Source: a bacterium
GTDB taxonomy: Bacteria; Patescibacteriota; Minisyncoccia; UBA6257; WO2-44-18
Direction of reading: 5' to 3'
Assembly (NCBI GenBank): GCA_023244815.1
Contig: JAHFLQ010000005.1
Location: 1 to 44,756, forward strand
Length of the DNA: 44,756 nucleotides
Position 1 is the stretch's first letter. Every line of letters starts with the position of its first letter. A program made the translations under genes and the position numbers. Under the pieces are notes generated by a model that was not told the DNA's origin, did not search any database, and was given only the letters and a program-made list of their open reading frames with translations. Positions 2,385-41,532 of the stretch are shown piece after piece.

Positions 2385-3727
2385 TGCTGGAGGATATCCG
2401 CAAAGAACGGCTTAAGAAAAAAGAACAGCTGGAGAGGCTTGGCTATGATATTTATCCCGCCCGAGTTAAACGCACCAATTCAATCGGTGGCGTTGTTCAA
2501 TCTTTCGCGGCACTGTCCAAAAAGAAAACTACAATATCTATCGCCGGACGGGTGATGGGCCTGCGCGTGCAAGGCGCGATTGGATTTGCCGATCTGATGG
2601 ATGCGAGCGGTAAGATTCAGGTTTTTTTAAAAAAGGACAATCTGAAGAGTTTTACGGTTCTTAAAGCAAATCTGGATATCGGTGATTTTCTGGAAGTTGG
2701 CGGCACGCTTTTTAAAACGAAAGCCGGCGAAAAGACTATCGAGGCAAAAAGCGCGCGGATTATTGTAAAAGCGCTCCGTCCTTTGCCGTCGGTTTGGCAC
2801 GGTCTGCAAGACGTCGAAGAGCGCTACCGCAAACGCTATCTTGATTTAGTTCTTAATCCGGAAGTTAAAGAGAAGCTCATTGAGCGCTCTAAAATAATTG
2901 AGTACCTTCGTGAAACCCTGGCCAAAGAAGATTTTTTGGAAATAGAAACGCCGATGCTCCAACCGATTCCGGGCGGCACCAGGGCTCGGCCATTCAAGAC
3001 TCATCACAACGCGCTAAACGCGGACTTTTACCTGCGTATCGCGCCGGAGCTTTATTTGAAGAGATTGCTGGTCGGCGGTTTTGAGAAAATTTTTGAAATC
3101 GGGCGCAATTTTCGTAATGAGGGAATCGATCGCGCGCATAACCCGGAATTTACAATGCTGGAGCTCTATTGGGCGTATCAGGACTATGAAGGCTTGATGA
3201 AGTTTACTGAAAAATTGTTGAAGAAATTCATACCCGGCAAATGGGAGCGAATTAAATATACCGACGCGTTGAAAAAATATTCCGGCAAAGATTACAAATC
3301 CATTAAGCCGGAACAATTAGACGAATTTTTCAAAAAAGAAGTCCGACCGAAAATTATCAAGCCGACATTTGTGACTGACTATCCGGCGTCTGTGCTCGCG
3401 CTGGCTAAGTTTGATGAGAAAAATAAATCATTGACCGAAAGTTTTCAGCTTGTTGTTGACGGTACGGAAATTATCAAAGGATTTTCCGAGCTGAATGATC
3501 CGGTAGCCCAACGAGCGCAAATGCTTGATCAGGAGGAAGAGCGCCGCGGTGGCAACGAAGAGGCGTTTCGCATGGACGAGGACTTCTTAGAGGCGTTGGA
3601 GTACGGCATGCCGCCAGCCGCCGGCTTAGGCTTGGGCATTGACCGATTGGTAGCATTAGTGACTAAATCCCACTCTGTTAAAGAAATAATCGCTTTTCCG
3701 ACTTTGCGCCCGAAGGACCTCGGGTAG
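2384..3727 (+). CDS. lysS: Lysyl-tRNA synthetase, class II
   Basis: 447 residues, somewhat shorter than the roughly 500 usual in bacteria. The N-terminal OB fold for anticodon binding covers about 50-135 (ISIAGRVMGLRVQG, FADLMDASGKIQVFL). The class II catalytic core shows motif 1 around ETPMLQPIPGG, motif 2 as FEIGRNFRNEGIDRAHNPEF (about 238-257) and motif 3 as GLGLGIDRLVAL near the C-terminus. It charges tRNA-Lys. It starts one base into the greA stop codon without a separate ribosome-binding site, so it is the second gene of a greA-lysS operon that ends at the hairpin at 3748. Confidence 0.96.
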   Translation: MLEDIRKERLKKKEQLERLGYDIYPARVKRTNSIGGVVQSFAALSKKKTTISIAGRVMGLRVQGAIGFADLMDASGKIQVFLKKDNLKSFTVLKANLDIGDFLEVGGTLFKTKAGEKTIEAKSARIIVKALRPLPSVWHGLQDVEERYRKRYLDLVLNPEVKEKLIERSKIIEYLRETLAKEDFLEIETPMLQPIPGGTRARPFKTHHNALNADFYLRIAPELYLKRLLVGGFEKIFEIGRNFRNEGIDRAHNPEFTMLELYWAYQDYEGLMKFTEKLLKKFIPGKWERIKYTDALKKYSGKDYKSIKPEQLDEFFKKEVRPKIIKPTFVTDYPASVLALAKFDEKNKSLTESFQLVVDGTEIIKGFSELNDPVAQRAQMLDQEEERRGGNEEAFRMDEDFLEALEYGMPPAAGLGLGIDRLVALVTKSHSVKEIIAFPTLRPKDLG

Positions 3728-3747
3728 TTATTTTTCGGAAACAGAAT

Positions 3748-3776
3748 AATCCGGCTCCTGCGGCCGGATTTTCTTC
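3748..3776 (+). terminator. Terminator of greA-lysS
   Basis: An 8-bp stem (aatccggc with gccggatt, loop tcctgcg) is followed by a short T-rich run. Confidence 0.8.
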
Positions 3777-3807
3777 ACCCTCGGTTTTGTTTATTACAAA
3801 ATATAGC

Positions 3808-3813
3808 TATAAT
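3808..3813 (+). promoter_or_regulatory. -10 box (leaderless start) of serS
   Basis: TATAAT ends 7 nt before the ATG at 3821. A weak -35 (TTTGTT-like) can be placed around 3785-3791. No Shine-Dalgarno sequence is present. Confidence 0.7.
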
Positions 3814-3820
3814 AATTCTT

Positions 3821-5107
3821 ATGCTGGATGTTGAGCTGATCCGCAAAGACCCGGAAAAAGTTAAGGACGGGATCGCGAAAAAGAACGTGGACACAAGCGT
3901 CGTGGACGAATTTTTGAGTTTGGATAAGTCCTGGCGGGAGCTGGTAAAATCTACCGACGAAAAGCGGGCGCTTCTGAATAAATTCAGCAAAGAGCGTAAT
4001 ATCGAAGAGGCGAAAAAGGTTAAGGAACAGATAAAAAGCGAAGAGGCACGATTACCGGAGTTGGAAGCCCAACGGCTCAAAACCCTACGCTCCATTCCTA
4101 ATTTGCCACTGCCGGAAGTAGCTGTAGGAAAAGACGCAAGAGAAAATAAAACTTTACGTGAAGTTGGGGAGAAGCCGAAATTTGATTTTCCGGCGCAAGA
4201 TTACGTTGAGCTTAGTGAGAAGCTGGATTTAATAGATACCGCCCGCGCCGCCAAAGTTTCCGGCAGCCGTTTCGGATATCTGAAGCACGAAGCCCCGCTG
4301 TTGGAGTTCGCGTTAATTCAATTGGCGCTGAATCTCTTAACCAGCGAGAAAGAGATCGGTAAACTTATAAAAGCGAATAAATTAAATATTCCCGCGAAAG
4401 CCTTTATTCCGGTTATTCCGCCGGTGCTTATCAAGCCGGAAGCCATGCAGGCGATGGGCTATATGGAGCGCGGCGGTGACGAGATTTATCAGATAGAAAA
4501 GGACCAACTTTACTTGGTCGGCACCTCCGAGCAATCTATGGGGCCGATGCACATGAATGAGAACTTTCAAAAAGATAGCTTACCGCATCGTCACATTGGT
4601 TTTTCTACCTGCTTCCGTCGCGAGGCCGGATCTTATGGCAAAGACACCAAAGGGATCTTGCGTGTCCATCAATTTGATAAATTGGAGATGTTCGTGACCT
4701 GCGCGCCGGAAACTTCACAAGACGAGCATAAACTTCTGCTGGCTATTGAAGAAAAGTTAATGCAAATGCTGGAATTGCCATACCGTGTGCTGGATATTTG
4801 TAGCGGCGATCTCGGCGATCCGGCAGCGGCGAAATACGATATAGAAGTTTGGCTACCCGGGCAGAATGAGGGCAGTGGGCAATATCGCGAAACCCACTCT
4901 GCTTCTAACACCACCGATTACCAGGCGCGGCGCCTGAATGTAAAAATTAGGCCGGATAATATTTACGTGCATATGCTCAATGGCACCTGCTTCGCCATCG
5001 GCCGTATACTGATCGCGATTATTGAAAATTACCAGATGAAAGATGGGACAGTAAAAGTTCCGAAGGCACTGCAGCAGTACTTGAATTTTAAAGAAATTAA
5101 GCGATAA
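3821..5107 (+). CDS. serS: Seryl-tRNA synthetase
   Basis: 428 residues, the normal family length. Residues 1-110 form the long helical hairpin that clamps the variable arm of tRNA-Ser (MLDVELIRKDPEKVKDG opening). The class II core follows: TSEQSMGPMHMNE (ATP/serine pocket), motif 2 FSTCFRREAGSYGKDTKG, and motif 3 as NGTCFAIGRILIAI. It charges tRNA-Ser and is also the first step for selenocysteine tRNA where present. It is a leaderless single gene: TATAAT ends 7 nt before the ATG. The downstream small membrane gene begins 30 bp later with its own strong ribosome-binding site. Confidence 0.97.
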   Translation: MLDVELIRKDPEKVKDGIAKKNVDTSVVDEFLSLDKSWRELVKSTDEKRALLNKFSKERNIEEAKKVKEQIKSEEARLPELEAQRLKTLRSIPNLPLPEVAVGKDARENKTLREVGEKPKFDFPAQDYVELSEKLDLIDTARAAKVSGSRFGYLKHEAPLLEFALIQLALNLLTSEKEIGKLIKANKLNIPAKAFIPVIPPVLIKPEAMQAMGYMERGGDEIYQIEKDQLYLVGTSEQSMGPMHMNENFQKDSLPHRHIGFSTCFRREAGSYGKDTKGILRVHQFDKLEMFVTCAPETSQDEHKLLLAIEEKLMQMLELPYRVLDICSGDLGDPAAAKYDIEVWLPGQNEGSGQYRETHSASNTTDYQARRLNVKIRPDNIYVHMLNGTCFAIGRILIAIIENYQMKDGTVKVPKALQQYLNFKEIKR

Positions 5108-5138
5108 TATAGGCAGTTCCTTCATATAGGAGGTTCAT

Positions 5139-5504
5139 CTGAAAAAGGTGCTGCGTTACCTGCTTTCTAAATATACAACTGCGACCGTTCTTGCGATCTT
5201 CACCGTTTTCGATGTTTTGTTTACCATCCTAATCCTCCGTCGTTTCAAGGACGTGCTCGGCTCCGAAAACGCGGAGCAAAACGTGATCTTACGCCAACTT
5301 TTCAGCATCTTCGGCATTGAATACACCATGCTGTTGCTTTTTCCGCTGGCGATGCTTTTGGTAATTCTTTGTGTGGTTCGGTTTTGGGATACGCGCGGAT
5401 TGTGCTGGCCGGTCCGAATCTACGCCTGCTACCTTTGCCTGGCCAGGATCTACCTTCTCACTAATAACTTTTCGGTGCTCGCCGCGCTGATAACTGATCG
5501 TTAG
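5139..5504 (+). CDS. Small three-helix membrane protein, unknown function
   Basis: About 120 residues with three hydrophobic helices (near 15-35, 58-80 and 88-108) and a basic N-terminus. I recognise no family with certainty; the spacing of helices resembles small DUF5658-like membrane proteins. Start choice: a perfect AGGAGG at 5128-5133 lies only 5 nt before a CTG at 5139, giving (M)KKVLRYLLSKY, whereas the first GTG at 5148 is 14 nt away. The CTG start is therefore preferred, and GTG 5148 is the alternative. The strong Shine-Dalgarno contrasts with the leaderless serS and alr on either side. It ends at its own terminator. Confidence 0.65.
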   Translation: MKKVLRYLLSKYTTATVLAIFTVFDVLFTILILRRFKDVLGSENAEQNVILRQLFSIFGIEYTMLLLFPLAMLLVILCVVRFWDTRGLCWPVRIYACYLCLARIYLLTNNFSVLAALITDR

Positions 5505-5510
5505 CTTCAG

Positions 5511-5538
5511 AAAAACGGCTTTTCAAAAGCTGTTTTTT
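5511..5538 (+). terminator. Terminator after the small membrane gene
   Basis: aaaaacggctt pairs with aagctgttttt (one G-T pair) around a 5-nt loop, and the 3' arm runs into six T. Confidence 0.75.
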
Positions 5539-5542
5539 ATTG

Positions 5543-5548
5543 TAATAT
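5543..5548 (+). promoter_or_regulatory. -10 box (leaderless start) of alr
   Basis: TAATAT, a 4/6 match to the consensus, ends 7 nt before the ATG at 5556, the same spacing as at the other leaderless genes here. Confidence 0.5.
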
Positions 5549-5555
5549 CAAGACA

Positions 5556-6665
5556 ATGAATAAGACCTGGATTGAAATAAATAAAACTGCCGCCCGCCAA
5601 AATATTGAGAAAATTAAAGCTCTGCTTCAACCGAAAACCAAACTTTGGGCCGTAGTGAAGTCCAATGCTTATGGCCACGGTCTTTCCGTTTTTTCCAAAA
5701 TCGCCAACGAAAATGGGGCGGACGGATTTTGCGTGGACAGCGTTATTGAAGGGGAAAAGTTGCGGCAGGAGGGGATTAAAAAGCCGATTTTGGTCCTTGG
5801 GCCAACCTTTAAGCGTTTTTTCCCATCAGCTGTTAAAAATAAAATCACAATAACTATTTCTAATTTGGAAAGCCTGAAAGAGTTGGTCCAGTCAAAATCC
5901 AAGCCCGAGTTTCATCTTAAAATTGACACCGGCATGCACCGACAAGGTTTCTATGCCCCCGAATTGTCAAAAGTCGTTCGCCTGCTCAAGACTCAAAAAG
6001 TCAGGAACTCAATAACTGGCGTGTACACCCACCTTGCCTCCGCGAAAGATATCAACTACCCAACCTTTACTGACCTCCAATTTAAGGAATTCCAAAAAGC
6101 CATAAAATTATTGGAACGGGCAGGCTTCCGGAATTTGATTAAGCATGCCGCGGCTACCGGCGGGACTTTAATAAATCCAAAATACCATCTGGATGCGGCT
6201 AGGATTGGGATAGGCCTATACGGTCTTTGGCCGTCAATGGAGCTGGCAATCCAATTATCTAAAATCAAGTTTAAACCGGTTTTATCGTGGCGAGCGCTGG
6301 TGAGCGAAATTAAAAGTTTAAGAACTGGCGATTACGTTGGCTATGATTTGACCGAGAGGATTCAAAGGCCCAGTAAGGCGGCTATTCTGCCCATTGGCTA
6401 TTGGCACGGCTTTCCCAGGGCCCTTTCTGGAATCGGCGAGGTTTTAATCGGCGGTAAAAAATGTCGGGTACTGGGGCGAGTTTCAATGGATATGATTATT
6501 GTCGATGTAACTGGAGTGAAATGCGAGCGCGGGAGCAGGGCGACTTTAATCGGCAAACAGGCCAGTTTCGAAATAACTGTTTACGATATGGCTCGCAAAC
6601 TGGGAGCTAGCCACTATGAAATTATTACCAGAATAAACCCATTGATCGAACGTGTTATTGTCTAA
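5556..6665 (+). CDS. alr: Alanine racemase
   Basis: 369 residues, normal length. The PLP-binding lysine is in AVVKSNAYGHG (about residue 36) at the start of the TIM barrel. The C-terminal beta domain carries the catalytic tyrosine segment GDYVGYDLT and the PIGYWHGFPR motif that follows it (canonical form PIGYADGYPR). RVSMDMIIVD is the usual domain-end motif. It interconverts L- and D-alanine in the cytoplasm to supply D-Ala for peptidoglycan, which fits the ftsQ-like gene behind it and murC further along. Leaderless: the -10 is at 5543-5548. It overlaps the next gene by 14 nt. Confidence 0.95.
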   Translation: MNKTWIEINKTAARQNIEKIKALLQPKTKLWAVVKSNAYGHGLSVFSKIANENGADGFCVDSVIEGEKLRQEGIKKPILVLGPTFKRFFPSAVKNKITITISNLESLKELVQSKSKPEFHLKIDTGMHRQGFYAPELSKVVRLLKTQKVRNSITGVYTHLASAKDINYPTFTDLQFKEFQKAIKLLERAGFRNLIKHAAATGGTLINPKYHLDAARIGIGLYGLWPSMELAIQLSKIKFKPVLSWRALVSEIKSLRTGDYVGYDLTERIQRPSKAAILPIGYWHGFPRALSGIGEVLIGGKKCRVLGRVSMDMIIVDVTGVKCERGSRATLIGKQASFEITVYDMARKLGASHYEIITRINPLIERVIV

Positions 6666-7392
6666 AGCAGACAAACGGCGGCATTACCAGCGAGTACGCC
6701 TGAAACTTTATTGCAGCGCCGGTTTCCTTGTCCTGCTTTTAATTTTTGGTTTTTACGGTTTATTGAATTTCCCCGCCCTGAAAATAAAAAAAATAGAAAT
6801 TGAGGGTGTAACGAAACTAGAAGATATCCGGCCCACGGTTTTAAGCGGCGCATTAGCACGAGTTTTGGGGGCGAGCAATTTCTATTCTTGGCCAAAAAAA
6901 GTTGGGATGATTGATATTAAAAAAGACTACTCCACTGGCACTCTAACGCTTGTCGGAATAGCATCGGAGCGATTCGCAATCTGGTGCGCTGCGGTCAGTT
7001 CGGCACAAGCATCTTGTTTTTGGGTAAATCGTGAAGGACTGGCGCTCGAAGAGGCGCCGGATACAGAGGGAGCGTCTATCGCCAAGGTAAATGATAATCG
7101 CGATCTCATGCCTGTCACCGGAAAGCCAATCTTATTGAGATACTTCCCAAGCGTTACTAGAATTATTGCCGGCTTAGCCAATTTGCCCATCAGCATTGCA
7201 AGTTTTTCTTATAATGACCGTCTTCAGGAACTTACGGCAACCGGCGTAAGAGGTGAGCGGATGATTTTCAGTGTCCGCTTTATTCTGGACGAAAAAGCCC
7301 TTACTTCTCTTGGAGGCCTTATTCAATCCGGCAAGCTTCGCAATTCGGAATATGCCGATTTTACAGTGGAAAACAGGATTTATTTAAAGTAG
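6652..7392 (+). CDS. FtsQ/DivIB-like cell division protein
   Basis: 246 residues with short basic N-terminus, one membrane helix (about 18-40), then a POTRA-like segment (IKKIEIEGVTKLEDIRPTV) and the beta domain. CFWVNREGLALEE and the terminal FTVENRIYLK match the pattern of FtsQ/DivIB, where such lines read like W-Y-V-D-R-x-G and R-F-x-x-R-V-x-L. The family is a divisome scaffold in the membrane that links FtsB-FtsL to the septal synthases. The assignment rests on architecture and pattern; overall identity must be low. The start at GTG 6652 overlaps alr by 14 nt; TTG 6658 is an alternative. Co-transcription with alr is likely. Confidence 0.7.
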   Translation: MLLSKADKRRHYQRVRLKLYCSAGFLVLLLIFGFYGLLNFPALKIKKIEIEGVTKLEDIRPTVLSGALARVLGASNFYSWPKKVGMIDIKKDYSTGTLTLVGIASERFAIWCAAVSSAQASCFWVNREGLALEEAPDTEGASIAKVNDNRDLMPVTGKPILLRYFPSVTRIIAGLANLPISIASFSYNDRLQELTATGVRGERMIFSVRFILDEKALTSLGGLIQSGKLRNSEYADFTVENRIYLK

Positions 7393-9744: not shown

Positions 9745-11757
9745 TTATCCTTTGAGATCTAGGGCATCAACGGTCGGAATGATGTTTTCCTTTAACCAAC
9801 CATCGAAGTAGCCGTCAAGGACATCTTTAGCCACCGCGCGTGCCTCCGAATCATTATTTTCTTTCAGCGCCGCGAACTCTTTCTGAATTCGGCGTTGCGC
9901 TTCCAGACAATAAAGATCGGCGATCGTCGCGTAGTTGTCGAAATCGCTTGTCTGGTCTCGATAAGTGGCATAGGCGCAAACCGTTGCCATCGCGTAGAGT
10001 TCGGAAGAGGTCTGGAAAAGCCGCCGCAAAGTCAGTTGCTTATTGGCCAGCTTGTCCCGGTACTTTCCGGAAAGTACGATGATCGTTGTCGCTAGACGAC
10101 GAGCATTCGCTTCGACGAAAAGCATATGTTCGGCGAGTTTTGGCTTAAGATGGGCAAAAGCACTCTGCTTTTTCAATTTTTCGGCAAAGCACAAGGCGAG
10201 GAGATCTTTGGCGAATCCCGACGCCGCTTTGAGCTTGCCCCACTTATTGTCCTTGTCGAAGAAGACCTTGCCGCGCTCCATATAATCGTTGAGTCCTTCG
10301 CGGACCACGAACATTCGGAGCAGGGTGCCGGACTCTCCTTCAAAGATACGATTGATGCGCGTGTCGCGCCACCAGCGTTCGGCGGGAATCGGTGCCTCGC
10401 CGCGCTTCTTGAGCGAAGCGGCAGTTTCATAGCCGCGTCCGCCCCGCATCTGAAGCAGGTTATCGGCGATCTCATAACCGCGCTCGGAAGCCAGCACTTT
10501 ACAAGTAGCGGCCTCCATTCGGCAGTCGCGGTGATTGTCGGCTTGTCTTGCGGCGTACCAGACCATCGCCTCCAAAGCGAAGGCGGTCGCGAGATCGTTC
10601 GCCAGCATACCGCTCCCGACTGCTTCGTGCTTTCCGATGAGTTTGCCCCACTGGAAACGTTTGTTGCCCCACCACTTACCAACAGAAACGCAATTCTTCG
10701 CCATCGCCACGCAGGAGGCGGCGAGAGTGATACGCCCGCTGTTCAGGGCTTCAAGGGCGATCCGGAAGCCACAGCCCTCTTGTTTGTAAATCAGCAGCTT
10801 GTCTTCCGGATGAACTTCTATGCCCGTTTCGGCAGTGAGTTTATCAATGTCTGTGTGCCTAGCGGGCAGCACTTTCTTGCCAAGCAATTGCGACTTCGGA
10901 ACAACCACATCGTGGAAATCGGTCATTCCGGTGTAAATGCCGTTCAGGCCAGCCAGTTCACATCGCTGAACAACTTCTATACCGGGGTAATTGGTCGGCA
11001 GAATGAACGCGCCGAAGCAGGGCCTGTAATCCTTGTTATCTCGGTTTTTTTCGAGTTCATCCGGTCGATCAATAATTTTGGCAATGATGATAATGACAGG
11101 CGAAAGATATGTACTGTCGTTCATCGGGCCATTGGTGGTCCACCATTTACGCCCACTAATACAGTAGGCTATAGTTTTGCCGAATCTATTTTTGATTCGA
11201 CCAGCCACAGTTTCCATCGCCGACGGATCGGATCCGGCCTTTTCTTCGGTAAAAGCAAACCCAGAAGGGTGTTTGGCCACGATCGGCAGCCACTCGGCCT
11301 TTTGTTCCGGAGAGCCATAGGCCATAATCGGCCAGCCGACACCGATGGTGTTGGAAGCCGAAAGCAAGGCCACGATTGCTCCCGACCAGGTAGCCGCCAG
11401 CTGGAGAATTTTCATGTACTCCGACTGGACAAATCCCATGCCGCCATACTCTTCGGGAATTTTCAGGCCGAAGTAACCGTTATCGCAAAACCACTGAATT
11501 ACGTCGCGAGGCACTTCCTTTGTTCGCTCGATCTCTTCGGCGTCCACTTTTTTGACAAGAAAATCCGCGAGTTTCGCGCACATTTCGTCAACTTTCGGAT
11601 TCAGCTTGGACGGCTTGCCGACCCAATCAAACAGCAGATCAAGGTCCAACTTGCCTTTAAAAAGTTTGGCCATCAGGCCATCGAGTCGCTCGTTACCACG
11701 AGTTTCCTCGGCAATCGCCGCGCCCGCGCCAAGCTGTTTGCCCACATCAAGCACCAT
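9745..11757 (-). CDS. Acyl-CoA dehydrogenase (long-chain, FadE/VLCAD-like)
   Basis: 670 residues, longer than the 380-residue short-chain type, with a C-terminal extension as in VLCAD/ACAD9. Helical N-domain with IPEEYGGMGF; FAD/substrate-binding FAFTEEKAGSDPSAM and WWTTNGP in the beta domain; C-domain with LLQMRGGRGYE and the catalytic base in RINRIFEGESGTLLRMFV, the E of the VLCAD pattern R-I-F-E-G. It should catalyse the first, FAD-dependent step of beta-oxidation; its electron acceptor ETF is not in the window. Clear TAGGAGG 4 nt before the ATG. Last of three beta-oxidation genes on this strand, each with its own terminator. Visibly more G+C-rich than the ribosomal genes. Confidence 0.93.
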   Translation of the reverse strand: MVLDVGKQLGAGAAIAEETRGNERLDGLMAKLFKGKLDLDLLFDWVGKPSKLNPKVDEMCAKLADFLVKKVDAEEIERTKEVPRDVIQWFCDNGYFGLKIPEEYGGMGFVQSEYMKILQLAATWSGAIVALLSASNTIGVGWPIMAYGSPEQKAEWLPIVAKHPSGFAFTEEKAGSDPSAMETVAGRIKNRFGKTIAYCISGRKWWTTNGPMNDSTYLSPVIIIIAKIIDRPDELEKNRDNKDYRPCFGAFILPTNYPGIEVVQRCELAGLNGIYTGMTDFHDVVVPKSQLLGKKVLPARHTDIDKLTAETGIEVHPEDKLLIYKQEGCGFRIALEALNSGRITLAASCVAMAKNCVSVGKWWGNKRFQWGKLIGKHEAVGSGMLANDLATAFALEAMVWYAARQADNHRDCRMEAATCKVLASERGYEIADNLLQMRGGRGYETAASLKKRGEAPIPAERWWRDTRINRIFEGESGTLLRMFVVREGLNDYMERGKVFFDKDNKWGKLKAASGFAKDLLALCFAEKLKKQSAFAHLKPKLAEHMLFVEANARRLATTIIVLSGKYRDKLANKQLTLRRLFQTSSELYAMATVCAYATYRDQTSDFDNYATIADLYCLEAQRRIQKEFAALKENNDSEARAVAKDVLDGYFDGWLKENIIPTVDALDLKG

Positions 11758-11803
11758 AAAACCTCCTAACTGATAACTTAAAATGTTCTGCCACCATATT
11801 AAT

Positions 11804-11831
11804 AAAAAACCCGCACTTTGTACAGCGCGGG
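11804..11831 (-). terminator. Terminator of the hydratase/dehydrogenase gene
   Basis: On the minus strand cccgcgc pairs with gtgcggg (7 bp, one G-U), directly followed by six T. It begins about ten bases after the stop codon. Confidence 0.85.
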
Positions 11832-11841
11832 CGTGGATATT

Positions 11842-13896
11842 TTAAGTGCGCGCGAGATCGAAGTCCGAACCGAAAATGCCGCGTCGATTCGGGCAGATTC
11901 CCGCGCCGAGAATTATTGCAAGGTCAATCATATCTTTGGATTTCAGCACACCTTCTGCAATGAGCCACGAACCTTCATTGCGCATCTCATTCAGGACGAT
12001 TTGCGCTACTGCTTCAACGAACCAGGGGTCGTTCGTTTTGAGGTTGCGACTGTCGGCCCGTACCTTAAAGTTGATCTCTTGGAATATGCGGTAGTTCGGT
12101 TCGCCGACACGCTCGCCATCCCAAAAATAAAATCCTTTGCCGGTTTTTTTGCCAAGCACGGCTTTGTTCTGCATCAGCTCCATATCCAGCACCAGTTTCG
12201 GATAGCTATCGGGATAATAGCGGCCCATGGACTTAATCACATGGTCCGCGGTGTCAAAACCGACGAGGTCTGTTGTTTTGAAAGGCCCCATCATCATTCC
12301 ATAGCGCTCCAACCAGTCATCCACTTTCCAGGGATCAATCCCAACCGTCAGCATTTTTAGAAAGGCCTTGGCGATGCCGCGGAGTAAGATGCGGTTCACC
12401 ACCAGCCCGGCGCACTCCTTGTCCAGAACGACCGGCGTTTTGCCAAGCGCTTTGGTGAGAGCGAGCGTGCGAGCGAGGGTGTTCGGGTGGGTATCTGGTG
12501 TGCCGGCAATTTCTACCAGCTCCATCTTTTCCGCCGGGTTGAAGAAGTGCATCGCGCCGAACCGATCCTTGTGCTGTAGCGAAGCGGCGACTTCGCTCGG
12601 CAAGAGAGAAGAGGTATTGGTGGCGATTATCGCCGATGGCGAGATATGCTTTTCCAGTTCTGAAAGCAGTGCGCGCTTCCATTCCAGATTTTCGGTGATC
12701 GCTTCCACGATGAAATCGGTAGTGCGGAAACGTTCGTAACGATTGCCCCAGCTAACGGTCAGCAAGGCACGCCTCGCGGCCGCTTCGGCCGGAGTAATAC
12801 GTTTTTTCGCGACTCCGGCTTTCAGGGCGCTTTCAATCAACGCCACCGCGTCGTGAATGCAGTCAGGGCTGATGTCGTGGAGTAGGGTAGGGATACCGGC
12901 CGATATCGCGGCGTAAGCGATTCCCTTACCCATACCCATGCCGTTCTTGCCGGCTCCGACAACGCCTAAGCATCCCGGTGGCTTCTGCGGATCAGCGTTT
13001 ACCCAATTTTTGGATCGCGCTTCGTTCCTGACGGCAAAGATGCTCATCAGATTTCTAGCTTCTGGCGACGCCGCGCATTCGGCGAATAGCTTTCCTTCCA
13101 CTGAAAGGCCGGTTTCTAGGTTTTTACAACTCGCCCCGATCGCTTCGATTGCTCGGAGCGGTGCCGGGTAGACGCCCTTCGTTTCTTTCAGTACGCGCTT
13201 TATGGCGCCGGAAAGAATCAGCTTTCTGCCGAAATAAGGAATGCTTTCGATGCGGTTCTTTTTTGCCGTACGATAGCGTTCTGTTAAACCGAGACGCAAG
13301 CAATCGGCAAAGGTTCGGGCTGTCGCAAGCAAACGGTCCGGCTCAACGACAGTATCCACCAGACCGCACTTTTCGGCGGTTTCGGCGTTCAGCTTTTTCT
13401 GACCGACGATGATTTCTAACGCCCTGGTTAGACCAATGACACGCGGCAGTGTTTGCGTGCCGCCGAAGCCGGGGATGATGCCAATGCTGGTTTCCGGCAG
13501 ACCGAAAAGAGTTCTGGGATGTTTGGCCGCGATCCGCGCGTGGCACGCGAGCGCGAGCTCCAGCCCGCCACCGAGACAGGTGCCGGAAATAGCGGCCACC
13601 ACAGGATATGGCGCGTGACGAATCTTGAGTAAGATCCCCACCGCCTTTTCCCGAATCTGTTTGACCAGCACGGGATTGTTGAGCGAGCCGCGAATTTCTT
13701 CAATGTCCGCGCCGGCGCAAAAACTCTCCGGCTTAGCCGAGGTGATGATTAGCGAGTTCGGGCGCGAGTTAGCGAGAAATTCATCCAACTCTTCCAAAAC
13801 CCGCGCCTTCAATAGGTTTTGCTTTGCTTCAGGGCCGAGATCCAGCGACAACACTATGTTGTCGCTGCTATCTCGTTCCAATTTCCAAAACTGCAT
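11842..13896 (-). CDS. Fused enoyl-CoA hydratase / 3-hydroxyacyl-CoA dehydrogenase (FadB/FadJ-like)
   Basis: 684 residues, two domains in FadJ order. Residues 1-190 are the crotonase domain: oxyanion-hole ESFCAGADIEEI, catalytic glutamates in GTCLGGGLELALA and FGLPETSIGIIPGFGG. Residues about 300-680 are the NAD-dependent dehydrogenase: nucleotide loop LGVVGAGKNGMGMGKGIAYA, catalytic His in FGAMHFFNPAEKMELVEI, C-terminal dimer domain with DLVGFDTADHV. It hydrates 2-enoyl-CoA and oxidises the 3-hydroxyacyl-CoA. Oddity: the glycine loop is GAG-KNGM-GMGKGI, about four residues longer than the usual GAG-x-M-G-x-G-I. Strong AAGGAG before the ATG. Between the thiolase and the acyl-CoA dehydrogenase. 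Confidence 0.93.
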   Translation of the reverse strand: MQFWKLERDSSDNIVLSLDLGPEAKQNLLKARVLEELDEFLANSRPNSLIITSAKPESFCAGADIEEIRGSLNNPVLVKQIREKAVGILLKIRHAPYPVVAAISGTCLGGGLELALACHARIAAKHPRTLFGLPETSIGIIPGFGGTQTLPRVIGLTRALEIIVGQKKLNAETAEKCGLVDTVVEPDRLLATARTFADCLRLGLTERYRTAKKNRIESIPYFGRKLILSGAIKRVLKETKGVYPAPLRAIEAIGASCKNLETGLSVEGKLFAECAASPEARNLMSIFAVRNEARSKNWVNADPQKPPGCLGVVGAGKNGMGMGKGIAYAAISAGIPTLLHDISPDCIHDAVALIESALKAGVAKKRITPAEAAARRALLTVSWGNRYERFRTTDFIVEAITENLEWKRALLSELEKHISPSAIIATNTSSLLPSEVAASLQHKDRFGAMHFFNPAEKMELVEIAGTPDTHPNTLARTLALTKALGKTPVVLDKECAGLVVNRILLRGIAKAFLKMLTVGIDPWKVDDWLERYGMMMGPFKTTDLVGFDTADHVIKSMGRYYPDSYPKLVLDMELMQNKAVLGKKTGKGFYFWDGERVGEPNYRIFQEINFKVRADSRNLKTNDPWFVEAVAQIVLNEMRNEGSWLIAEGVLKSKDMIDLAIILGAGICPNRRGIFGSDFDLART

Positions 13897-13940
13897 AAAA
13901 TCTCCTTACAAAGGACCAGCCGCATATTACGACTTTTTCT

Positions 13941-13974
13941 ATAAAAAATAAAGCCCCCCGATGCATATCGGGGG
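13941..13974 (-). terminator. Terminator of the thiolase gene
   Basis: cccccgat (13955-13962) pairs with atcggggg (13967-13974) around a 4-base loop. On the minus strand it is followed by ctttattttttat. It lies about ten bases after the thiolase stop. Confidence 0.85.
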
Positions 13975-13984
13975 ACGGTGATTT

Positions 13985-15265
13985 TTAATCTAAATTCTCG
14001 ATAACTGCGGCGACACCCTGGCCGCCACCGACGCAGAGGGTGACGATAGCTAATTCCTTTTTCTGACGTTTGAGTTCGATAGCCGCCGTGAGTGCCAAAC
14101 GGGCGCCGCTGGCGCCGACTGGATGGCCGATGGCAATTGCGCCACCGTTGATGTTGGTTCTGTCCCAGGGAAGGGGACCGTACCCCTCTTTTTCCAAGAG
14201 GCGGCTTTGCGCGAGCACCACCGATGCAAATGCCTCATTGGTTTCGATGACGCCAAAGGCATTGAGATCCCAGGCTTGATCCATAGCGTGCATTTTCGAG
14301 AAAAGTTTGCGGATCGCCGCGACTGGACCGAGACCCATCACTGTCGGATCACAGCCAGCCGCTGCCGACAACTCCGAACTCACGCCAGCCAGCCTCGGCC
14401 AGCCCTGCGCTTTGACAAACTCTTTGTCGGCAACAATCAGTGCGACCGCGCCGTCGCTTACCTGCGAAGAATTGCCGGGCGTTGTCGTTCCGCCAGGGTT
14501 GAGCGGGCGGAGCCTCGCGAGATGTTCGATCATCTGACCTTCGCGGACCCCATTATCCTGATCCAATCCCTGGAAGGAAACAATTTCTTCCGCGAGGCGA
14601 CCAGATTTTTGCGCTTTATAAGCGCGGCGCTGGGATTCCAGCGCGAAAAGATCCAGTTCCTTGCGGGAGATTTGGAATTCACTGGCGAGTTTATCGGCGA
14701 TTTTGTCCATGCCGAGGCCGCAATAAGGATCGGTCAGGCCAACCTTAATTAGCCACTCCGGCTCGTGCGCCATGAACCGCGTCTTTGCTTTTTGAGCGAT
14801 CAACCGCGGTCCTTTGAAAACCATCGGCGACTTCTTTTTGGAAATCGCGAGCAGTTTTCCGAACTCGTCGCGCTGTTTCCGGCCATAAGCCGCTGTGTAA
14901 TCGGACATCACTTCTACACCGATCACCAGCACGCATTGGGCGAGGCCAACTTCCACGCGCATTGCCGCGTCGATGATCGCCTCAAGCCCACTGCCGCAAT
15001 TAATGTTGATCGTCCGCGCGTCCACGTGCTGGGGGATGCCGGCGTCCAAGGCGATGAGCCGCGCGATATTGGAACCGTCCGGCGGCAACAACTGGTTGCC
15101 GATATTCGCTCCAACTACGCAATCAATCAATTTTTCCAGCCCAGGATATCGACGCGCCAGCTCCTTTACCGGAACTACGCCGAGTTTCCGAGCGTTGAGA
15201 TCCGGCACACTGCCAGCCCTGAAAAATGCCGTGCGGACGCCATCCACGATTACCACGTTTCGCAT
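13985..15265 (-). CDS. Acetyl-CoA acyltransferase (thiolase)
   Basis: 426 residues, the length of FadI-type rather than AtoB-type thiolases. The nucleophilic cysteine is in ININCGSGLEAI (about residue 91), the conserved histidine in GGAIAIGHPVGASGARLAL, and the second cysteine in VTLCVGGGQGVAAV at the C-terminus. N-G-G-A-I-A-x-G-H-P is diagnostic. It cleaves 3-ketoacyl-CoA with CoA, the last step of beta-oxidation, or runs in reverse to condense acetyl-CoA. First gene of the set, with a promoter at 15303-15331 and TAGGAG 7-8 nt before the ATG. Confidence 0.94.
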   Translation of the reverse strand: MRNVVIVDGVRTAFFRAGSVPDLNARKLGVVPVKELARRYPGLEKLIDCVVGANIGNQLLPPDGSNIARLIALDAGIPQHVDARTININCGSGLEAIIDAAMRVEVGLAQCVLVIGVEVMSDYTAAYGRKQRDEFGKLLAISKKKSPMVFKGPRLIAQKAKTRFMAHEPEWLIKVGLTDPYCGLGMDKIADKLASEFQISRKELDLFALESQRRAYKAQKSGRLAEEIVSFQGLDQDNGVREGQMIEHLARLRPLNPGGTTTPGNSSQVSDGAVALIVADKEFVKAQGWPRLAGVSSELSAAAGCDPTVMGLGPVAAIRKLFSKMHAMDQAWDLNAFGVIETNEAFASVVLAQSRLLEKEGYGPLPWDRTNINGGAIAIGHPVGASGARLALTAAIELKRQKKELAIVTLCVGGGQGVAAVIENLD

Positions 15266-18524: not shown

Positions 18525-18572
18525 ACCACGGCCTTACGGCCGTGGTTTTCGTTTGGAGGTGCGGCATATAAA
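18525..18572 (+). repeat. Dispersed 48-bp repeat containing a terminator (copy 1)
   Basis: ccacggcc-ttac-ggccgtgg with tttt after it ends transcription of the permease gene. The whole 48 bp, including about 18 bp after the hairpin (ending gcatataaa), recurs at 37891-37938 with five differences. The repeat runs directly into the ychF tail remnant. Confidence 0.8.
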
Positions 18573-21874: not shown

Positions 21875-22657
21875 TTATTTTATATATCCTATTTTCCGTA
21901 ACCAGTACTCATTTTCCCACTGCCATAGCGTCTTAGCACCGAGAAACGCTTCGAAATCCGGCTGCCAGTAGGGAAATTCCTTAATTTCAATAATACCCTT
22001 CATATCGTCCCAATCGTGACCTTCTTCGCCGCAAAATGGCTTGCCGTTGCTTCGGTATGGTTTCTTGATCTTCTGCCGGCCTCCCTTACTGCGCATTGTA
22101 GAGCCGCATAACTTGCAGGTCTGCCCCTGATCTATTCGCAAGATCCAGCGCGTGGAAAGGCCGGCCATCAGCGGATCGCGGGTAAGCGCGTCCATATAGG
22201 CGGAGAGCTGAAGATTATAATCGCGGTAAATTCCTTGAGAGGTCTTTATGTCTAGCACGCCGAATTTGCCGTCAATTAAAGCCAGAGTGTCAATGGTGCC
22301 GGCATAGCGATGCACTTGGTTACAAATTCTTTTTTCCACGTGGGCCGGTTCAACCTGGATGTTGTTCTTTAATAAAAATTCACGGAAAGCGTTAATGGCC
22401 GGCGCGATTAAAGGATCAACTATGGGTTCTTCGCCGATCAATATCTTTTCCGCCGCTTCGTGCACCATCGTACCTTCTTTGGCTGACTGTTCAGTCATTG
22501 CCTGCGCGGCGGCGTAGCTCGGCGAGTCGCCATAATATCTGTAGAGGGCGGGCTTGGATTTTATATCCACGATTTTTGTAACCCTCGGATACCAAAGGCC
22601 GTCAATCACATAGCCGCATTTTTCCATGAAGTCTTCAGCGTTTTTGAAATCAAACAT
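21875..22657 (-). CDS. PD-(D/E)XK nuclease superfamily protein (RecB/Cas4-like)
   Basis: 260 residues. Core motifs: HEAAEKIL (about 65), GTIDTLALIDGKFGVLDIKTS with the catalytic D and D-x-K (about 118-138), and YNLQLSAYMDAL (the Q-x-x-x-Y motif). This is the nuclease fold of RecB, AddB and Cas4. A short segment later (about 183-210) holds CKLCG and FCG cysteines and may bind zinc; it lies where Cas4 and AddB proteins have Fe-S cysteines, but the spacing differs. No cas or recombination genes adjoin. Likely a DNA repair or phage-type exonuclease. Start ATG 22657. Confidence 0.75.
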   Translation of the reverse strand: MFDFKNAEDFMEKCGYVIDGLWYPRVTKIVDIKSKPALYRYYGDSPSYAAAQAMTEQSAKEGTMVHEAAEKILIGEEPIVDPLIAPAINAFREFLLKNNIQVEPAHVEKRICNQVHRYAGTIDTLALIDGKFGVLDIKTSQGIYRDYNLQLSAYMDALTRDPLMAGLSTRWILRIDQGQTCKLCGSTMRSKGGRQKIKKPYRSNGKPFCGEEGHDWDDMKGIIEIKEFPYWQPDFEAFLGAKTLWQWENEYWLRKIGYIK

Positions 22658-22660
22658 AGT

Positions 22661-22713
22661 TCGTAAATCGTGAATCGTAAATCTTAAATCGTCTGACGAT
22701 GCGAGATACAGGA
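22661..22713. repeat. Quasi-periodic short-word repeat (intergenic)
   Basis: The words tcgtaaatc, tcgtgaatc, tcgtaaatc, ttaaatcgtc and gatgcgagatac follow each other in imperfect 8-9 bp periods. The same word family (aatcgtgtatcgcgcatctcgtatcg) is inside murC at 23112-23176. This looks like a low-complexity minisatellite that spreads between and within genes. Confidence 0.6.
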
Positions 22714-22714
22714 C

Positions 22715-24022
22715 TCATGATACAAGATTTTCGGTGTAGTTAATAATGTCGCCGGCGCCCATCATTACGATAATAGGGGATAGTTTGGGGTTTAGGGCGC
22801 TAACAACCTTAATTAAAATCTTTTTTAAATCTTTCGGGTTCTTTAGATATTCCGCGCCAACTACTCTCGCGAGCGCCTCGGAACTTCTTTTTTTATCCAG
22901 TTCCTGCTCACGGCCAGCCACAATGTACGTAGGGAATAGGATAACTCGGTCAGCGGCCTTAAAGGCGGTTTTAAAGTCATTAAACAAGGCCTTGAGACGA
23001 TGGGCTTGATGGGCCTGAAAAACGCAAATAAGAGGGTTTTTAGGCCATTTCTGCTTGAATGCGGCCAGCGTCGCCCTGATCTCGGACGGGTGATGGGCAT
23101 AATCGTCAAAGACGCGAATCGTGTATCGCGCATCTCGTATCGTTCGAAGATGTGCGCTGTGCGATGTGCGATTCACGCTCAACGTTCCCCGGTACTCCAT
23201 TCGCCGCCAGGCGCCTCGATATTTACCGAGTGCTTTTAAAATAGTTTGTCTAGGAATATCTAAATAGTCGGCGATAGCGTAAGCGTTGAGCGCATTATTA
23301 ACATTATGATCGCCTGGAATTTTCAAAACTTTTTTAATCTCAGCGGCTAGCTTTGGATTCGTCGAACGCTCAACAACTGTCTCACAACGCTCTTTAAACT
23401 GCTCAAAAGTTTTTTGAACGTTGGCGAAATTTTTATAAAAATCCAAATGCTCTTTATCTATATTAGTGATCGCCGCGACATATGGATGATAGTTTAAAAA
23501 AGCCGCCCTCCATTCGTCGGCTTCCAGAACTAACCAACCCGAATTTCCCTTACGAAAGTTTTTCCCACCCAGCTCTTTTAGTTTTGTCCCAATGATTATC
23601 GTCGGGTCAAGGCCAGCCTCAATTAAAATCAGCGAAACCATGGCGGTGGTCGTGCTTTTACCGTGCGAGCCGGCAACGGCAATAGTTTTATATTTTTTGG
23701 TCAGTTCGCCGACTATTTCCGGATAGGATCGCACGGCGGCGCCGGATTTTTCCGCCGCTATCAGCTCCGGATTTTCTTTTGGAATCGCGTTGTTGTAAAT
23801 GACGAGTGATGGTCCGCTCTTTTGGATGTTGTTTGCTGATTGTTTACCAATGTAAACCGCGACACCTTCTTTTTTGAGTTCGTCGGTAGTTCCGGAAGGG
23901 GAAAGGTCGGATCCGCTAACCTTCCAGCCCTCGGACAAAAAATACCGCGCGAGCGCGGACATTCCAATTCCGCCAATGCCAATAAAATGAGCTCTGTTGC
24001 GAACCTTTTCCTTACTAGCCAT
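22715..24022 (-). CDS. murC: UDP-N-acetylmuramate--L-alanine ligase
   Basis: 435 residues from the chosen start. N-terminal Rossmann domain HFIGIGGIGMSALA, ATP loop VAGSHGKSTTTAMV, central EADEWRAAF and TNIDKEHLD, C-terminal domain FDDYAHHPSEIRATL. It adds L-Ala to UDP-MurNAc in the cytoplasm. The reading frame is open to 24223, but a TATAAT on this strand (24030-24035) ends 7 nt before ATG 24022 and the family motif starts ten residues after it; the longer form would have an implausible N-terminus. About 20 residues (around SVNRTSHSAHLRTIRDARY) before FDDYAHHP are extra to the family and come from a short-word DNA repeat. Confidence 0.95.
   Translation of the reverse strand: MASKEKVRNRAHFIGIGGIGMSALARYFLSEGWKVSGSDLSPSGTTDELKKEGVAVYIGKQSANNIQKSGPSLVIYNNAIPKENPELIAAEKSGAAVRSYPEIVGELTKKYKTIAVAGSHGKSTTTAMVSLILIEAGLDPTIIIGTKLKELGGKNFRKGNSGWLVLEADEWRAAFLNYHPYVAAITNIDKEHLDFYKNFANVQKTFEQFKERCETVVERSTNPKLAAEIKKVLKIPGDHNVNNALNAYAIADYLDIPRQTILKALGKYRGAWRRMEYRGTLSVNRTSHSAHLRTIRDARYTIRVFDDYAHHPSEIRATLAAFKQKWPKNPLICVFQAHQAHRLKALFNDFKTAFKAADRVILFPTYIVAGREQELDKKRSSEALARVVGAEYLKNPKDLKKILIKVVSALNPKLSPIIVMMGAGDIINYTENLVS
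23112..23176. repeat. Short-word repeat inserted in frame in murC
   Basis: About 65 bp made of gaatcgtgtatcgcg, catctcgtatcg, gatgtgcg and gcgattcacg. It is the same kind of tract as at 22661-22713 and encodes the roughly 20 residues missing from other MurC proteins. Edges are approximate. Confidence 0.6.
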
Positions 24023-27922: not shown

Positions 27923-28148
27923 GCGAATTTTGTCTAAATTTTCGAGCTCAACTGTAGCGAAGAAAATTTAGCCACAAAATTGAGCACCCCGTTAGATGCG
28001 AAAAAGGCTACGGGGATACCCTTGATTCGACTTTCTTTCATTACATTTATTATCATTTTGGTTATTGGTTGTTTGGTCGCTATCTAACGGGGTAAAGGTT
28101 TGGTTTTGCAAAATTCTATGCCTTTGGCTTGAATTTTGCAACCAAGTC
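27923..28148 (-). promoter_or_regulatory. Three-helix RNA element upstream of rplO (copy 1)
   Basis: Read on the minus strand: helix B (28108-28116 with 28131-28139, extended by 28100-28105 with 28140-28145), helix A (ccccgttagat, 11 bp, 27987-27997 with 28082-28092, enclosing 84 nt), linker TGCTC, helix C (27926-27943 with 27962-27981, 18 bp, two bulged bases, loop with TCGCTAC), then 3 nt and the rplO ATG. The copy upstream of fusA has the same plan with compensatory changes in helices B and C. It starts right after the rpsE stop codon and occupies the place of rpmD. Likely a cis-regulatory RNA; a mobile element is the alternative. Confidence 0.7.
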
Positions 28149-37890: not shown

Positions 37891-37938
37891 ACCACGGCCT
37901 TACGTCAGTGGTTTTCGTTCGGAAGTGCAGCATATAAA
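37891..37938. repeat. Dispersed 48-bp terminator repeat (copy 2)
   Basis: 43 of 48 bases match 18525-18572, including the hairpin accacggcc-ttacg-...gtggtttt and the trailing gcagcatataaa. No plus-strand gene ends here. On the minus strand the hairpin followed by tttttattc may act as a second terminator insulating the tuf promoter. Confidence 0.7.
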
Positions 37939-38498: not shown

Positions 38499-38534
38499 AA
38501 CTAGGTTATCTTGCGATCGTCAGTTAACCTAGTT
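38499..38534. repeat. Inverted repeat IR-1 upstream of the PaaX-like gene
   Basis: aactaggtta (38499-38508) and taacctagtt (38525-38534) form a 10-bp palindrome around 16 bases. It shares aactaggttatct with IR-2 at 39139-39173. It overlaps the spacer and both hexamers of the promoter, so it may be an operator. Confidence 0.75.
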
Positions 38535-38539
38535 ATAAT
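38511..38539 (+). promoter_or_regulatory. Promoter of the PaaX-like gene
   Basis: TTGCGA (38511-38516) and TATAAT (38534-38539) are 17 bp apart. The start is expected about 6 nt before ATG 38552, so the leader is very short. A protein bound to the IR-1 palindrome would block it. Confidence 0.65.
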
Positions 38540-38551
38540 AAATTTCAATTT

Positions 38552-39136
38552 ATGCGCGGCGAACGATTGTTAAAAGCTTTGGACATTATTGAAACGCTCA
38601 CCTGTAATACGGCTGGGTTTATGGAAGCATTTCTGTCCAGCTCGAAAAGTAAGTACTTGCCCTTATTAAGATTTCGGCCGCGTATTTATAACAGTATGTC
38701 AGAGGGTATCCGAAAAGATGTAAAAGAAAAACAGGAAAGACAGAGGATATATGATCTAATTTCAAGACTCCAAGAAGATGGGCTGATTGAAAAAAGTAAG
38801 CCTGGCCGCTGGTTAATAACGGCCAGGGGTAGGTTAAAGAAAGATAAATTAAAATCTGAATTGGCCAATAGATTGCCTGATCAAAGTTATAAAACTAAAC
38901 CATCTAAAGAGATTATAATTTTTAGTTTTGATATACCAGAAAAATTGAGAAATAGGAGAAATTGGCTTAGATCCACTCTTAAAAATATTGGGCTCTCAAT
39001 GTTGCAGAAAAGTGTTTGGCTCGGCAAGGTAATAATGCCGAAAGATTTTATGGAAGACCTCAAAAAACTGCAATTGCTAAATTATATTGAGATTTTTACC
39101 GTCGGAAAGGCCGGCACTATCAAACAGGTAGTCTGA
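38552..39136 (+). CDS. PaaX-family-like regulator (winged helix plus Cas2-like domain)
   Basis: 194 residues. Residues about 50-105 look like a winged helix (YDLISRLQEDGLIEKSKPGR, WLITARGRLKKDKL); residues about 115-194 look like the Cas2-type ferredoxin fold of PaaX C-terminal domains (KEIIIFSFDIPEKLRNRRNW, LRSTLKNIGLSMLQKSVWLG, VIMPKDFMEDLKKLQLLNYI). Family members act as dimeric repressors; true Cas2 is a nuclease of CRISPR adaptation, but no CRISPR or other cas gene is here. The gene is flanked by IR-1 and IR-2 and lies between fusA and tuf, opposite to both. Autoregulation through IR-1 is likely. Confidence 0.75.
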   Translation: MRGERLLKALDIIETLTCNTAGFMEAFLSSSKSKYLPLLRFRPRIYNSMSEGIRKDVKEKQERQRIYDLISRLQEDGLIEKSKPGRWLITARGRLKKDKLKSELANRLPDQSYKTKPSKEIIIFSFDIPEKLRNRRNWLRSTLKNIGLSMLQKSVWLGKVIMPKDFMEDLKKLQLLNYIEIFTVGKAGTIKQVV

Positions 39137-39138
39137 CT

Positions 39139-39173
39139 AACTAGGTTATCTGACGGTCGTCGGATAACCTAGT
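39139..39173. repeat. Inverted repeat IR-2 downstream of the PaaX-like gene
   Basis: actaggttatc (39140-39150) and gataacctagt (39163-39173), 11 bp perfect, around tgacggtcgtcg. Same arms as IR-1. There is no T tract after it and no other terminator between this gene and the convergent fusA end. Confidence 0.75.
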
Positions 39174-41323: not shown

Positions 41324-41532
41324 GCCAATTTTATCTCCAAGCGTAGCGAGGAGCTATAAAATTGAGCACCCCGTTAGATGCGGGAAAAGCTAGAAGGCTT
41401 TCATCCATTCGACTATTATTTTTTGATTTCTTATTTGATAGACTGTTCATAGATTTACCGATATCTAACGGGGTAAGGGTTTTGTTACTGAAATTCGTTC
41501 GGTTATCACCTCCGAATTTCAGACAAAGCCCC
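41324..41532 (-). promoter_or_regulatory. Three-helix RNA element upstream of fusA (copy 2)
   Basis: Minus-strand order: helix B (41488-41497 with 41513-41522, extended by taaggg-ttttgt 41474-41485 with its partner at about 41523-41535), helix A (identical ccccgttagat stem, 41369-41379 with 41463-41473, enclosing 83 nt), linker TGCTC, helix C (41327-41338 with 41350-41363, two bulged bases, loop TCGCTAC), then 3 nt and ATG. Twenty-five bases around the helix A arm equal copy 1, and helices B and C keep pairing through changed bases. The outer part of helix B reaches into the rpsG stop codon. Helix C includes the GGAG of fusA. Confidence 0.72.

Follow-up and report, generated by a model that had tools for sequence, protein, structure and literature searches.

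The murC locus and its two arrays

The window, that is, the whole stretch of 44,756 nt that was analysed, carries on its minus strand, at 22715..24022, an murC gene with its frame intact, whose product, UDP-N-acetylmuramate--L-alanine ligase, was identified by TIGR01082 (E 7e-111; 371.5 bits, over the curated cut-off of 335.1) and by the Pfam families Mur_ligase, Mur_ligase_M and Mur_ligase_C. An insert of 63 nt within the gene, at 23114-23176, is made up of nine unbroken 7-nt words in one register. Read on the plus strand, it comprises a left arm of four NNNNATC words, recognised in the sequence and by the degenerate-array scan (GCGAATC, GTGTATC, GCGCATC and TCGTATC; 23114..23141), a centre word (GTTCGAA; 23142..23148) and a right arm (GATGTGC, GCTGTGC, GATGTGC and GATTCAC; 23149..23176), in which a period-7 tract was scored at 23151-23172 (score 12.7) and by Tandem Repeats Finder at 23149-23172. 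The letters kept from word to word are mainly ATC/GAT.

A second array, of ten 7-nt words at 22663-22732, lies in the spacer beside murC. Its left arm on the plus strand (GTAAATC, GTGAATC, GTAAATC and TTAAATC; 22663..22690) corresponds to a period-7 tract at 22661-22690 with a score of 16.1, and Tandem Repeats Finder called both this tract and the one in murC as period 7. A centre word (GTCTGAC; 22691..22697) is followed on the same strand by a right arm (GATGCGA, GATACAG, GACTCAT, GATACAA and GATTTTC; 22698..22732) that was delimited from the sequence and the ORF limits, and that contains matches to the GAT pattern with one mismatch at 22698-22728. Since the array extends to 22732, its right arm spans the stop and the last five codons of murC (22715-22732). 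The two arrays follow a common plan on the plus strand, with four NNNNATC words, one centre word and then mostly GATNNNN. The original prediction had described both as mixtures of atcg, tatcg and gatgtgcg words; the actual unit is 7 nt instead of mixed lengths of 4, 5 and 8, and the likeness of the spacer at 22661-22713 to the in-gene sequence holds for the plan, whereas the spacer tract proved longer and enters murC.

Directly adjoining the spacer array is the start codon of a gene on the minus strand (21875..22657) for a 260-aa protein of unrecognised family, for which a search of Pfam and NCBIfam gave no match at E 0.001. A frame resembling it is also found by eye downstream of murC in two members of the same family of organisms, hereafter G004 and G001 (in the L018 and L011 sequences).

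The 63 nt correspond to 21 codons, residues 283-303 of MurC (VNRTSHSAHLRTIRDARYTIR), in agreement with the claim that about 20 extra residues precede its FDDYAHHP motif. They are absent in part from other MurC proteins: among solved structures, 9ir5 lacks 18 residues at this site and 2f00 lacks 9, and the MurC of G004, 66% identical to the one in the window, lacks 18. In the AlphaFold model of the protein (mean pLDDT 93.8) strands 276-285 and 298-307 are the arms of a hairpin and the insert is its tip. In that of the G001 protein (mean pLDDT 90.7) the arms are strands 310-317 and 328-335, and an insert is again at the tip. These models, which cover the MurC of the window and proteins of the loci, have their lowest ten-residue mean pLDDT at the hairpin tip (63 and 66, respectively), and residues 170-183 of the G001 protein, inside its second insert, fall below 50. 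The insert is thus predicted to make a surface hairpin of MurC longer.

The host genome (hereafter G000) amounts to 597,801 bases in 15 contigs. The closest MurC in the named collection, in a search that may omit very near records, is from a 'Patescibacteria group bacterium' (44%), followed by Parcubacteria and Portnoybacteria, and the genome, a small one, is probably Patescibacteria-like. Genes for an acyl-CoA dehydrogenase, a FadJ-like fusion protein and a thiolase are adjacent at 9745-15265 of the window, a beta-oxidation set that, to our knowledge, is unexpected in a 0.6-Mb genome of such a kind.

Degenerate period-7 arrays in the genome and in relatives

In a scan of periods 4-24, the murC and spacer arrays were the only period-7 tracts of the window with a score of at least 11, and none appeared in five simulations. 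Two hundred first-order simulations of the window gave in total four tracts scoring at least 12.5, that is, 0.02 per window vs the 2 observed, and the score of 12.7 of the 63 nt at 23115-23177 was never attained in 20,000 letter shuffles. The window holds further repeats. At the contig start, positions 18-161 are occupied by an array whose 12-nt unit (GGACTAATCATT and variants) is, in contrast to the heptamers, divisible by three. Two pairs of direct repeats are found at 27970-28032 and 41352-41414 (63 nt, 78%, 13 kb apart) and at 18525-18572 and 37891-37938 (48 nt, 90%, 19 kb apart), and in the region 38499-39173 a gene for a 194-aa protein with a PaaX/Cas2-like domain is flanked by two imperfect palindromes of 35 nt that are 86% alike (AACTAGGTTATC...GTTAACCTAGT).

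Beyond the window, 15 period-7 tracts with a score of at least 11 were found in 245 kb of G000, a sample that represents 41% of the genome, and 15 in 100 kb of each of G004 and G001, N runs being excluded, vs 0.1-0.2 in ten simulations. The same samples yielded 0-3 tracts for each of the periods 4-6 and 8-13, except for period 8 in G004, and periods 14 and 21 were raised as multiples of 7. The G004 tracts of period 8 (L113-L117) number eight per 100 kb vs 0.1 simulated, with three in G000 and none in G001. A scan for degenerate arrays gave 21 period-7 arrays in G000, 18 in G004 and 21 in G001 vs 0, 0 and 1 simulated; it also raised periods 9 and 12 (in G000, 10 and 11) and, in G004, period 8. 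The excess of period 8 in G004 and the raised periods 9 and 12 indicate that the step is not exclusively 7. That the tracts arose by chance or as an artefact of assembly is scarcely credible, in spite of the fact that G000 and most loci are draft assemblies, many of them titled MAGs, given the 15 tracts seen vs 0.1-0.2 simulated and the open frames in many separate assemblies.

The murC neighbourhoods of 89 genomes of the same class, chosen roughly from the best scores downward among 139 other genomes of the class that gave a match, contained 47 tracts of period 7, as against 2-6 for periods 8, 10, 11 and 13 and 9-10 for periods 6, 9 and 12, and 25 of the 89 loci had at least one period-7 tract. 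Among 80 named loci, the 21 classed by title as Patescibacteria-like (three of them titled only 'bacterium') held 10 tracts, five of which come from a single locus, L035, or 8.0 per 100 kb, vs six in the other 59, or 1.4 per 100 kb. At L035 (DAOWIS010000015.1), one of the three titled only 'bacterium', six period-7 tracts with a score of at least 10 lie within 7.5 kb, at 1156-6833. The murC gene itself contains three of the six, and elsewhere at the locus there is an array of 89 nt whose inverted partner is 11 bases off. The arrays of the window therefore belong to a genome-wide class of degenerate period-7 arrays.

Recurrent filling of MurC loops

An alignment of 174 murC ORFs was compiled from the window, four family members, the 80 named loci and the 89 class loci. 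At scores of at least 9.5 these ORFs contain 47 tracts of period 7, compared with 1, 3, 3, 5 and 4 for periods 5, 8, 10, 11 and 13, respectively. The tracts of L133 are identical to those of L047 and were treated as a likely duplicate, which leaves 45. In the numbering of the MurC of the window, 6 of them lie near 87-98, 9 at 215-237, 15 at 276-306, 5 at 371-395, 4 at 405-417, 4 at the C-terminus and 2 elsewhere, so that five loops, defined post hoc from the matches, and the C-terminus hold 43 of the 45. None of the 45 tracts is from the 59 named loci classed as other than Patescibacteria-like.

The hairpin before DDYAHHP, taken from WRR to HHP, has 22-24 residues in the majority of rows. Scores of 8 or more at period 7 were found in 13 of the 27 rows with a hairpin of at least 26 residues vs 2 of the 146 shorter ones (173 rows, as L153 ends short of the loop). 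The words differ from row to row: NNNNATC in the window, AAGTTCA in G001, whose hairpin site is occupied too, and AGATTCT, AATGTCA, AAATTGN, ATTGGTT, AAATTAC and more in others. The AAGTTCA array of G001 is near-perfect and scores 27. In G004, whose hairpin has no insert, murC has tracts at 374-383 and over the C-terminus, with sub-threshold GTCGTCA words between them. The murC of G001 also has a second loop (L018:1955-2060) with an in-frame insert of about 30 residues for which a palindrome-like repeat (CGTCATTGCGAGG...GCGATGAC) codes, and palindrome-like inserts were seen by eye to fill the hairpin in L125, L126 and L163.

The loops were followed on a FastTree phylogeny of 276 core columns from 113 Patescibacteria-like rows, loops excluded, from which minimum numbers of changes were obtained, gain and loss not being distinguished. 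As to INDEPENDENCE and turnover on this tree, the hairpin loop (274-306) carries a tract in 15 of the 113 rows, including L035, with at least 12 changes; loop 209-240 does so in 9 rows with at least 8 changes, and loop 82-100 in 6 rows with at least 6. Four species of genus g50, with a core identity of 0.77-0.87, have four differing hairpin fillings: AAATTAC words in L127, a palindrome-like insert without period 7 in L125, AAGCTAA words in L128 and AAAAATT words in L184. ACTAACT words occupy the hairpin of L145, from the genus sister to g50. Four other genera (g68, n=4; g122, g106 and g186, n=2 each) have constant loops of 23-24 residues and no tracts, and no strain pair displayed the birth or the loss of an array. 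These observations demonstrate that the same MurC loops are hit recurrently, with differing words, and that the fillings differ inside one genus.

It could be argued that the hairpin residues are useful to MurC and that the DNA pattern simply reflects repetition in the peptide. Some of the peptides are indeed beta-hairpin-like (KFKVQSSKFKV, RFEILDSRFKI, LKIGNCKLKI) and a hairpin is present in both AlphaFold models. A repeated peptide, however, would generate DNA periods in multiples of three, whereas the period is 7 and appears outside genes too, and the residues are unconserved and missing from the relative G004, all of which makes selection at the protein level very unlikely. Conservation of the extra residues in distant relatives would have spoken against the original prediction; they are lineage-specific and the word changes from one relative to another.

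Other enzymes and the reading frame

In-gene tracts are not confined to murC. In G000 they were detected in the genes for ArgRS, IleRS (two), ValRS, LeuRS, a PfkB kinase and TrmD, and in G004 in those for an M23 peptidase, an RNase H-like protein and phosphoglycerate kinase (PGK). The family scan took in 6 of the 7 non-murC tract genes of G000 and 3 of the 4 of G004, where a straddling gene was included as well, and 0 of 4 in G001; nine tract-bearing proteins other than MurC, from G000 and G004, have a family match, and a tenth that was scanned has no family. Compared with the best solved homologue, the insertion at the tract amounts to 18 residues in MurC, 9 in PGK, 5 in TrmD and 1 in LeuRS, with none in ArgRS, and to about 3 residues in ValRS and adjoining the first IleRS tract. 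This range, from 18 down to none, means that the arrays replace loop sequence besides lengthening it. The IleRS of G000 (L103:9008-12406, contig G000:C2) has moreover, within the synthetase, a histidine-phosphatase domain (PF00300) at residues 491-658; its alignment with the solved IleRS 8c8w breaks off at residue 483 and resumes at 680.

The earlier expectation that one sequence type occupies spacers and essential genes without breaking the frame is sustained, within the 41% of the genome sampled, by ArgRS, IleRS, ValRS, LeuRS, TrmD and PfkB as well. The companion expectation, that in-gene tracts are always multiples of three, failed: division by three of the lengths of the 45 in-murC tracts leaves remainders of 0, 1 and 2 in 18, 17 and 10 cases, respectively, and the frame is preserved solely through the net change of the gene. 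The tracts also begin in any codon phase (17/16/12). They contain no stop in 457 codons in frame, vs 43 in 454 and 33 in 449 codons when the same strand is read in the remaining two frames, and these off-frame rates resemble those of 30 tracts called intergenic by a crude gene caller, which called 63-80% as coding and missed the murC of G001, so that its tract was entered as outside genes. Random stretches of murC are likewise free of in-frame stops (0 in 5,220 codons). An open frame across the tracts is what is expected from the survival of intact genes, and the process itself need not respect the frame, which would be preserved through purifying selection alone. Stop-free words giving the same seven codons in all frames, and hence frame-agnostic arrays, were also considered and discarded, since 25 of the 45 in-murC consensus words contain a stop triplet when read circularly; degenerate short in-murC arrays avoid stops only in the frame that is read. 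The in-frame presence of such arrays in MurC and further housekeeping enzymes is nonetheless an observed fact.

Origin of the arrays

The occurrence of period 7 both in and outside genes places the origin of the arrays at the level of DNA. We consider it probable that degenerate heptamer arrays arise by a process with a 7-nt step and are kept in genes where the residues are tolerated and the net frame is held. Such a process would generate arrays between genes and within them, and an in-gene array would survive only at sites where the protein can accommodate additional residues and the overall length stays in frame. The beta-hairpin tip before the DDYAHHP motif of MurC would be a permissive site, repeatedly filled with differing words, and in at least one genus its filling may turn over faster than the rest of MurC.

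Plain replication slippage, as proposed originally, could provide the 7-nt step: a short loop word would be duplicated and the copies would later decay by point mutation. Heptanucleotides are described as the most abundant class of long simple sequence repeats (LSSR) in most genomes, which has been related to a hypothesis on polymerase contact (PMC4679880, PMC4692102), and near-perfect arrays do occur, such as AAGTTCA in the murC of G001. Slippage predicts, however, that the nearest words should be the most alike, and the identity between words is 0.744 at lag 7 vs 0.736 at lag 21 in 21 arrays (11 vs 9), even though the arrays were picked at lag 14 with exclusion of those of low lag-7 identity, which favours lag 7; plain slippage is thus left without support by this comparison. 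A burst followed by random mutation predicts an even spread of differences; the variance of mismatches among word columns is 0.0265 vs 0.0183 in 34 arrays, with p<0.05 in 9 of them, and the clustering in those 9 is contrary to that prediction. Slippage does not make inverted arms either, and whole-word replacement inside one genus requires new seeds. Growth by slippage is, in sum, conceivable but on balance doubtful.

Alternatively, a small selfish element inserting without breakage of the frame, like the palindromic elements of Rickettsia (RPEs), could have left the arrays as copies of itself; RPEs provide the precedent of in-frame selfish DNA (PMC10969869). The single architecture shared by the spacer and murC arrays of the window, as well as the palindrome-like inserts seen by eye in the MurC hairpin of L125, L126 and L163 and in another loop of G001, would be consistent with this. 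Nevertheless, a comparison of words disclosed no common sequence beyond the word itself, the words vary between tracts, and the second arm is missing in many arrays, all of which renders a mobile element distinctly unlikely. A vocabulary common to the genomes had to be rejected, as 11 words occur in more than one genome vs 10.6 expected with shuffled letters. Word pairs within one mismatch inside a genome show a clear excess in G004 only (0.264 vs 0.054 shuffled). In G000 they reach 0.086 (0.033 shuffled), no better than between G000 and the other two genomes (0.071 and 0.080; 0.031 and 0.034 shuffled), which lends no support to the suggested spread from the spacer into the gene. A search for a single element family in G000 by means of the GAT pattern was similarly unproductive, with 24 one-mismatch matches vs 23 for the reversed control, so that the pattern by itself is no signature. 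A hidden word consensus gave a log-likelihood of -575.6 vs -611.1 for shuffled words (SD 3.7), a difference that preferences for neighbouring bases could explain.

The fixed and variable columns within words, together with the heptamer repeats that CspB is said to bind according to PMC4679880, might suggest that the arrays serve in regulation or as binding sites, for example of a protein contacting every seventh base, and that their overlap with genes is incidental. We regard this as very improbable, as the words differ inside one genome and tracts lie deep within genes. A mutational process, rather than selection on the peptide, is indicated as the repeated source of new sequence in conserved enzymes, and period 7, being coprime with the codon, serves as a fingerprint that separates an origin at the DNA level from selection at the protein level. 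The MurC hairpin, with its varied words in many species, offers a test bed for loop growth in essential proteins, and, as a warning, lineage-specific 'extra loops' in such genomes may consist of repeat DNA instead of being adaptations.

As for the nature of the process with a 7-nt step, inverted arms are relevant. An inverted partner with a score of at least 11 was found for 17 of 58 tracts, with the two arms of one pair counted twice, vs 1-6% of controls, and the other 41 have no such partner. The spacer tract of the window pairs with its right arm at a score of 11, whereas the murC tract, at 8 vs 7.2 for its controls, does not pass, which implies that its arms have little in common beyond the letters ATC/GAT. 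Among the matches listed, each of the seven GAT pairs found within 100 bases carries its NNNNATC words on the left and its GATNNNN words on the right, that is, GAT outward; three of them are G000 arrays from which the idea came, and the remaining four belong to two g50 species. One stray plus-strand match with one mismatch overlaps the left arm of one GAT pair, and the wider strand bias, 19 to 8 with one locus counted twice, is weak.

The arrays may be scars left when 3' ends were extended at DNA breaks or at stalled forks: the two ends would receive words of one class and then be joined, giving rise to inverted arms. We consider this rather unlikely, all the more so since the murC arms of the window do not pass as partners and no more than four of the seven oriented pairs add new evidence. 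A more far-reaching version, in which end-extension supplies both 3' ends of a broken chromosome with degenerate 7-nt words and the scars keep rewriting surface loops of essential enzymes, would fit the outward GAT arms of the seven pairs among those listed and the fixed and variable word columns; it appears improbable, but if true, two-ended extension would steadily provide tiny genomes with new protein sequence in frame.

Comparison with known repeat systems

A literature search for heptamers or tandem repeats, whether in Patescibacteria or in prokaryotes at large, returned, at the level of search results, no paper on in-gene heptamer turnover or on degenerate heptamers in Patescibacteria genes. 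Cyanobacteria contain the so-called STRR sequences, which are degenerate tandem heptamers, known as intergenic elements with a restricted word set. The arrays described here resemble them in being degenerate heptamers and differ in that the words are many and that many arrays are inside genes. Three heptanucleotides of Calothrix are mentioned in PMC4692102.

Heptamers are over-represented in bacterial genomes, according to the work on heptanucleotide LSSR of Mrazek and colleagues (2007) as retold in PMC4679880 and PMC4692102, where slippage is proposed and 7 nt may reflect polymerase contact, a reason for the prevalence of heptamers in bacteria that those accounts give as a hypothesis only. 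Our arrays share with LSSR the tandem units of 7 nt above chance (15, 15 and 15 tracts vs 0.1-0.2). The near-perfect identity of units expected of LSSR is not seen in our arrays, whose mean identity is ca. 0.74 (lags 7 and 21, 21 arrays), some single arrays being near-perfect. Their words are degenerate and stand in frame within conserved enzymes, and some of them form inverted arms. For in-gene repeats, multiples of three are said to be favoured in that literature (PMC4679880, PMC4692102). The TAACTGA repeats of marine Beggiatoaceae likewise are direct heptamer repeats at many sites, but consist of one fixed word, which our arrays do not have; they are mostly located upstream of start codons, and direct repeats of similar words are described as rare (PMC4679880).

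The RPEs, of about 150 bp, form sequence families and encode a conserved peptide, as presented in PMC10969869. Both systems place repeated DNA in frame inside genes, in our case the murC ORFs and the nine further family-matched proteins, but instead of a sequence family the comparison of words revealed a loose word and a period with no common sequence. The tandem repeats of Borgs, found between and inside ORFs, are A-enriched and fast evolving, and those inside ORFs are described as nearly all perfect, with every unit length divisible by three (PMC9879509). Our arrays are also found both between and inside ORFs; their unit is 7, they are degenerate, and their lengths in murC leave remainders of 0/1/2 in 18/17/10 cases. 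The excess of heptamers in bacteria is already known, and neither LSSR nor RPEs nor Borg repeats fit all the features of the arrays described here.
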